Shown here: in pieces, positions 1-33,500 of the stretch
Layout of the letters: each line of letters starts with the position of its first letter
Numbering within the stretch: the first letter of the stretch is position 1
Assembly: GCA_018697195.1 (NCBI GenBank)
Contig: CM031860.1
Location: forward strand, 60,631,126 to 60,695,125
Direction: 5' to 3'
Origin: Certhia americana
Taxonomy: Eukaryota > Chordata > Aves > Passeriformes > Certhiidae
Length of the DNA: 64,000 nt
The notes under the pieces: generated by a model
Database searches by the model: none
What the model was told of the DNA's origin: nothing
The model's input: only the letters and a program-made list of their open reading frames with translations
Translations under genes and position numbers: made by a program

Positions 1-24331
<24,331 letters not shown>

Positions 24332-30500: not shown

Positions 30501-33500
30501 CTGACTGTCCTAAATTCTCATTTTCTAAAGGTACCCCTGTATCTCTGGAGACCACAAACAGCCTGTTAGATTTGTTATGCTTCTGTGGAGATGGTGAACC
30601 TACTCCTGAGAAAGAGCAGGAAGAAAACGAGGGTTTGGAAGAACCAGGGGTATGGAAAACTTGTTGATCTCTATTTATTTATTTCATATATAGTGGGAAT
30701 ATATCAAGGTGACATCAAGATTTTTGTACTGTCTGCATGGGAGATGCCATGAGGAGGGGCAGATGCAGTCAACATTCCCAGGAGATACTTCTGTTATAAA
30801 AATCCATGACTGACCTAGTAGCAGCAGTAGTTTGTGTAAAGCTGTTAATATGTTTAATAACATAAACATCATTCTCAATCTAGCTATTGCTTCCTGAACG
30901 TTATGATAGAAATGATTCTAATATAACCCATTAAAAAACACCTTTGGTCCATGCTGCTGAACTTCAGTTTTGTTAGCAAATCATGTCATTTGATGTTAAA
31001 TCATAATTTAACTTCTTTTTTGCAAAAACCTTTCCAGATGAATGCTTCAGAACAGAAAGCTCCAAAGAGACAATTTCAAAGAGGTTCACAGTCATCTGGC
31101 CCCAGATGGAGGTATAGAAAACGTTGCCTTATATCCCCATATTCCATGGCTTGTGCACTTGTATTGTTGTTACAGAATAGACTGAGATCTTTCAGCAACC
31201 CATACTCACAGATGTAACTTGTTAAATAAACCTGTGCATGCTGATCTTTTAAACTGTTCATGGAAATCTTGTAGGTGATTGTAAAATAGTTTCAAGTATC
31301 AAAGCGTGATACGTGAATGTCAGTCTTTGGGGGTGCAGCCCTTATTTTGTTCTGCATGTCAAATCCTTCTCCTAAGGGTATCTCTCATTTGGTTAATGTT
31401 TATCTTGTTCATTGGTTCTAGGGAGAGCAACCATGCTGAAAGAATATTTAAGATAATGCCAGAGAGGAATGCACACTCCTATTGCACAATGATCCGTGGG
31501 ATGGTGAAGGTAAAGTTATTCTTCAGTGCTGGGGAATCTTCTCAGCTTGTGAGATCTGACATAGTCAGAGATTGTTTATTTTTGTTTTTGCAGCATGGGG
31601 CTTATTCTAAGGCTTATAACATGTACATAGACTTGCTGAATGAAAGGCACAAGGGTGAGTGTCTTCTGGTTGTACTTTGTGGTGTCCTGAGTACAGAAAG
31701 CCCCTGTTGGGCACAGGAGTGTTTGTTCATGGCAGTGATGATTGGCGCAGGGGTACGGACCTCAGCTGGATCATGGGAGCTGAATGCAAACTGGTAATTC
31801 CAGTGCAGCTGGCGTGTGGCTGGCTCACTGGAAACAGGTTTGCATGAGACTTTGCCAGAAACTGAGCCATGCTAGAACAAACTGTTTCCTGTAGGCCAAA
31901 AATTATCATTTAAAATGGCTTATCTTACATTTTCCAGCTGATGTGTACGCCTTCAATGCACTGATCAGAGCAGTCCCATATCTAAAGGAGAGGTTCACAG
32001 AAAGATGGGAATTAATCAAGGTAAGGAGGGTAGAGCAGAAGAGGTGGGGAAGTGGTAAGAGTGTGGGTTCTTAAGGGTCTGCCTTATTAGTAAAATCTTG
32101 CAGTTGTTGGAAGACTTAAAAGCAAAAACTTTATCCCCAGATACTAATCTTTGCTGTAAAGGAAGGACAGTAGTTTAAACAGAAAAGGTAACTGTGGAGG
32201 AGTGGCAAATGTAAAAAATCCAACCTTGCCTTCACAGAGTGATTTGCCTTTGAGAATATACCTGATCCAGGAACTGCCTGGACAGAAAGTAACTGGGGAA
32301 ATTACTGCTGGGAGATAAAATAAATAAACAATTTTAGATAAAAACTCTTTGAATTTTAATTCATGGTGTTGTGACAGAAATGGAATTTTGAGTTTTAATG
32401 ACCCTTCAGTAAGGAACAATATTGCATAACTTAAAAAAATTTTCATTATGTTCTAGAGACAATTCTCCAAGATTTATTCTCATGTAATGTAGCCTTGGGT
32501 TCTGGTCATGAAAAATTAGTACTGGTAAATAAAAGCAGAATTGTTCACTTGAAGGGGGTGAGAAGGCTTAGGTTGAGGAAATGTATGTGTAACCCACCTG
32601 AAAGCTGAACTATGATCCATAACATGTGAATCACTAAAGATTTGGGAATTTTCCTTTAAGGACTTCCTGACTCACATGGCTCAACAGAAAGTGCAACCAA
32701 CTCTGCTAACTTTTAATTCTGTACTGAAGAGTCTGAGAAGATGTGGTGGTGTAGGCAGAACTATGTCTTTATTGGTATTAAAGGAAATGGAAGCACTTGA
32801 TATAGGTAAGAGAACCAGAGTATTTATTATATGCAGTGATCATGATAGTCCAGTGCCACCTCCAGAGCAGAACAGTTGACTTAGGAGTTCAGCACCACAA
32901 CACAGTGGTGATTCCCTGATTCCAGGGGAGATGTGCTTCACAAATCACCCAAGCCAGTTCAGGTCTATAGATCTTCATCTATACAGAAAAAAGCTTTTGA
33001 TCTAGATGAGGATTTTTTCTTCCAAGTAAATATTGCAGAAACAGAATATGTGCAGAATTGATTTGAAGTCCTGTGGGCTGTGCTTTGCCTCTGTAACATG
33101 CTTGTTGAGAGGCTAAAGATTACATTCATGGGCAGAAGGGAAACTAGCTATGAAGTATTTTTGGTTTTAATTTAGATCAGGGAAGCTTGGCTGCTCCCCC
33201 ATAGAAGCAGGATGCTCCAGCTGGTGGCTCAGTGTTGGATATCACCTCTCCCCTGTGTGTGTATGTGAGGTCTGGTCCAGCATTAGGGTGGGTGGGGAGA
33301 GAGATTAAATTTATGAGTGCTGCCTGACTGGAGGAGCAGACTGTGAATTAGAGCTGTGGCACAAAGCTCAGCCAGGAATGTTGCAGTAACTGCAATGTTT
33401 TTGCTTTCCAGAGCCCAGCCTTGCATCCTATGATCATCTCCTCTCCGTGTATTACAGAGGCGGTACGTGCGCTGTCGGCTTGGCCATGAACGTGCCTGCT

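Follow-up and report, generated by a model that had tools for sequence, protein, structure and literature searches.

SNORD94 in a PTCD3 intron of Certhia americana carries a D' guide whose register fits U6 C62

Eight methylation sites are listed for human U6 snRNA, namely Am47, Am53, Gm54, Cm60, Cm62, Cm63, Am70 and Cm77, and the same list assigns Cm62 to the box C/D snoRNA SNORD94 (PMC7960923). In human primary cardiomyocytes, C62 methylation fell significantly when SNORD94 was knocked down, and overexpression raised it without reaching significance (P = 0.12); the authors of that report note that neighbouring sites may contribute to the C62 signal (PMC6894857). SNORD94 is called a scaRNA in that report, and is placed with the nucleolar pathway of U6 in another (PMC6124571). 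Association of human SNORD94 with fibrillarin has been measured and is lower on depletion of TFIP11 (PMC8599867), and a fragment of scaRNA17 has been proposed to pair with SNORD94, lowering C62 methylation (PMC6124571, PMC5612246). PTCD3 is listed as the host gene of SNORD94 (PMC6466398), and a rhesus SNORD94 has also been listed (PMC2832892).

Among birds, the chicken gene GGgCD83 (U94) was listed in 2009 with U6-C-62 as its target, a 10-nt complementarity on the 5' side and a location in intron 12 of PTCD3 (PMC2653536). The gene described here agrees with that entry in lying in a PTCD3 intron, in its target and in the length and side of its complementarity; the likeness is drawn from the table entry, which differs in giving a length of 163 and numbers the intron 12, where the earlier note on this DNA, introduced below, has 11. 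SNORD67 (HBII-166) is also a box C/D guide and acts on U6 close by, but it targets C60 rather than C62 (PMC7960923, PMC2653536), and its chicken form is listed in CKAP5, not in PTCD3 (PMC2653536). Against this background, the element in Certhia americana is an ordinary copy of a well-known vertebrate snoRNA. Its family, target and host were already known and hold no novelty, the chicken counterpart, likewise in PTCD3 and directed at U6 C62, having appeared in the 2009 list (PMC2653536).

An earlier note, which read this DNA from its letters, had proposed SNORD94 at this position and had suggested a covariance-model search as a check. We ran this search, and the Rfam SNORD94 model (RF00613) matched 31729-31870 on the plus strand with 123.3 bits (E 7.7e-29), compared with a gathering score of 60, in an alignment spanning model positions 1-137 of 137. 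This full-length match confirms the assignment as well as the strand and the ends. It is the sole Rfam match to reach a gathering score in the window, by which we mean the whole 64-kb stretch of DNA analysed, and the sole one with E up to 1 between 31400 and 32200; no tRNAs were found in the window. We also searched the genome (1.07 Gb, 652 contigs), where the copy at 31729-31870 was the only RF00613 match among the 42 of 87492 first-look candidates that were scored. The lack of a second match in this set, together with boxes, guide and terminal stem that are all intact, makes it extremely improbable that the element is a dead relic, replaced in its function by a different C62 guide at some other locus. 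Viral contigs scanned for the exact SNORD94 core gave no matches.

Table 1 Features of the SNORD94 element and its host intron, in window coordinates.
Feature	Positions	Strand	Basis
PTCD3 (mS39) host intron, 283 nt	31655..31937	+	flanking-exon matches; ends GTGAGT...TTTCCAG
SNORD94 box C/D snoRNA including 6-bp terminal stem	31728..31871	+	RF00613 match, stem pairing
Terminal stem 5' arm CATGGC	31728..31733	+	pairs with 31866-31871
Box C GTGATGA	31735..31741	+	fits RUGAUGA (definition in PMC2653536)
Guide GCGCAGGGG	31745..31753	+	Watson-Crick complement of U6 60-68; G31751 opposite C62
Box D' CGGA	31756..31759	+	1 mismatch from CUGA; identical in Rfam consensus
Possible short hairpin UCAGCU...AGCUGA	31762..31783	+	near-invariant stretch
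Long D'-C' hairpin of 26 pairs with GUGUG loop	31784..31845	+	fold versus shuffles
Probable box C' AUGAGAC, by eye	31844..31850	+	shares 2 bases with long hairpin 3' end
Box D CTGA	31862..31865	+	script and reading
Terminal stem 3' arm GCCATG	31866..31871	+	pairs with 31728-31733

The element has the box C (GTGATGA), box D (CTGA) and 6-bp stem of a box C/D snoRNA. These, the CGGA box D' and the 9-nt guide were all found, by script and by reading, at the positions first claimed for them (Table 1). In the family alignment, 142 nt of the bird sequence fall on 137 model positions, of which 102 are identical, a comparison made with the Rfam consensus. Common to both are the boxes, the D' guide, the U6 C62 target, the PTCD3 host, the terminal stem and the near-invariant stretch after D'. 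Along the consensus, identity is 25/26 at positions 6-31 (box C, guide and D'), 23/24 at 32-55 (after D'), 27/51 in the insert at 56-106, 8/9 at 107-115 (most of C'), 9/12 at 116-127 (the C'-D spacer, before box D) and 4/5 at 128-132. Each arm of the terminal stem is identical at 3/5 positions; the outer two pairs are A-U and U-A here versus C-G and G-C in the consensus, with pairing retained.

The nine Watson-Crick pairs between guide and U6 are extended by a tenth, a wobble between U31754 and G59. Five bases back from CGGA lies G31751, opposite U6 C62, so that the register proposed in the earlier note is borne out. This register rests on the vertebrate U6 sequence, which we take to apply to this bird, because no intact U6 gene was found by either a family search or a 47-base pattern search of the genome. 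The pattern search (up to 2 mismatches) returned no matches, and the family search, in which 48 of 121458 candidates were scored, returned seven U6-like loci, all diverged, the best being identical at 80 of 107 positions. At the modification positions listed in PMC7960923, the U6 bases that we used agree with those given there. The predicted energy of the guide-U6 duplex is -23.7 kcal/mol; when the 18 nt of the guide stretch were shuffled by mononucleotide, 41 of 5000 sequences gave a duplex at least as strong.

Two other placements of D' were considered. CTCA at 31761, the other D'-like tetramer with one mismatch, would address U57, which is absent from the listed sites. A slip of D' by one base would address C63; this is not supported, as it would use ACGG, with three mismatches to CTGA versus one for CGGA.

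To what extent pairing by itself identifies the element can be judged from 20000 dinucleotide shuffles of the 144-nt sequence. A 9-nt U6 complement of any kind occurred in 909 of them, 263 also had, no more than 3 nt from the complement, a D-like box that departs from CTGA by at most one base, and 26 were in register for a methylation site among the eight known in U6. Those 26 shuffles are what a chance look-alike in an intron has in its favour; it is nevertheless refuted by the full-length family match at its E value of 7.7e-29, and the host gene is the same as that listed for human and chicken, leaving chance with a vanishingly small probability. Since pairing alone is only moderately unlikely on these counts, it is the family match that settles the identity as SNORD94. 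The statement in the earlier note that the U6 target was recovered from base pairing alone is thus somewhat too generous to the pairing.

Complements of 9 nt to U6 occur in the window at 20 places on the plus strand and 34 on the minus strand, and a D-like box is in place for 2 and 11 of these entries, respectively. Two of the boxed entries address known U6 sites: one is SNORD94, and the other is a candidate at 12680 on the minus strand (CTGG box, A53), which has no Rfam match above the gathering score.

We further considered a double guide, in which D' would serve C62 while box D would have a guide of its own for another site; the scan for such a site covered U6. Several features are consistent with such an arrangement: imperfect pairing of the stretch 31849-31861 with U6 is predicted (-11.3 kcal/mol, a strength attained by 40 of 5000 shuffles), UUGCC before box D is common to the Rfam consensus, the C'-D spacer has the 9/12 identity given above, and Gm54, Cm63 and Am70 appear without a guide in the list of PMC7960923. 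However, the base five positions upstream of box D is A31857. Its only possible partner is U, and every one of the eight listed sites in U6 is an A, a G or a C; by the register rule, a second guide for any of these eight sites is thus excluded. As the consensus has U in place of A31857, this exclusion is limited to the present sequence and does not extend to other species. The hexamer preceding box D also departs from the consensus at three positions (CAGAAA versus CUUAAU). We regard a second guide as very unlikely.

The imperfect duplex at 31849-31861 is out of register for every known site. A further U6 complement, GCCATGCTA at 31866-31874 (U6 52-60), directly follows box D. We take it as probably due to chance, because it shares bases with the 3' arm of the stem and runs three bases past the predicted end of the snoRNA, the consensus differs there, and such complements arose in 909 of the 20000 shuffles.

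The structure line of RF00613 shows five terminal pairs only, and the long hairpin of the D'-C' insert is missing from it. In the bird sequence this hairpin, at 31784-31845, folds with z -7.44, none of 200 shuffles being as stable, and the matching stretch of the Rfam consensus, cut out by hand, forms 20 pairs with z -3.68 (again 0 of 200). Relative to the consensus, the hairpin has diverged in sequence and is longer (26 versus 20 pairs), and its loop is GUGUG where the consensus has AUGUG. The pair-by-pair comparison, done by hand, covered ten of the 26 pairs, five next to the loop and five at the base of the hairpin; six are the same, two are changed on one side and two on both sides. This comparison serves as a lead only, since it sets one sequence against one consensus, which is itself not a natural sequence. 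As a lead and no more, the structured insert would be a small addition to what is known of this gene.

Folding of the whole element gave a minimum-energy structure with z -3.93 (1 of 200 shuffles as stable), in which the long hairpin is present and the short hairpin at 31762-31783 is absent; taken by itself, the short hairpin does not stand out from its shuffles, 46 of 200 of which are as stable (z -0.61). It is possible, though we put this at somewhat less than even odds, that the long hairpin, perhaps with the near-invariant stretch before it, represents selected elements of SNORD94 beyond guiding. If so, they could serve in protein binding, in stability or in bringing D' and C' together, and would be a feature missing from the structure line of Rfam.

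In the same minimum-energy structure, computed for the element on its own, part of the guide is paired with bases after D'. The bases involved lie at the 3' side of the guide, within 31750-31763, and pair as GGGGU/ACCUC; this would mask the guide and be in competition with the short hairpin. We would not expect this predicted pairing in the assembled particle.

The exons on either side of the snoRNA identify the host. Joining 31594-31654 to 31938-32020, with bounds set by eye, gives a peptide of 48 aa, for which solved mS39/PTCD3 chains are matched with a best E of 4e-09. These chains are matched as well by the open frame 31285-31797, with a best E of 1.8e-10, through its residues 46-81 (31420-31527), which belong mostly to the exon preceding 31594. 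In one of the chains, 9ojm_4, the match of the open frame (residues 185-220) is followed by that of the joined peptide (residues 215-261). The host is therefore the mitoribosomal protein gene PTCD3, as had been claimed. From the 3' end of the snoRNA to the 3' splice site is 66 nt, a spacing that is usual for vertebrate intronic box C/D snoRNAs.

Our reading, to which we give a probability of about 98%, is that this locus is a SNORD94 (U94) gene whose product would be released from a PTCD3 intron, packed as a snoRNP and used, through its D' guide, for methylation of U6 C62 by fibrillarin. It draws on the family match, the boxes, the register on the assumed U6 sequence and the host gene as presented here. 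We infer that in this animal SNORD94 would be expressed and processed from the spliced intron and would assemble into a box C/D snoRNP, in which the D' guide would direct fibrillarin to 2'-O-methylate C62.

SNORD94 matters because C62 lies within the stem-loop of the U6 catalytic site (PMC6894857), and because zebrafish embryos treated with U94 morpholinos were reported to show heart malformations and altered exon retention (PMC6023535). A reading of the sequence alone had recovered both the guide and its target correctly. While no view of the field is changed, the gene in C. americana presents another vertebrate in which a U6-modifying guide keeps its guide sequence, its register and its host gene.
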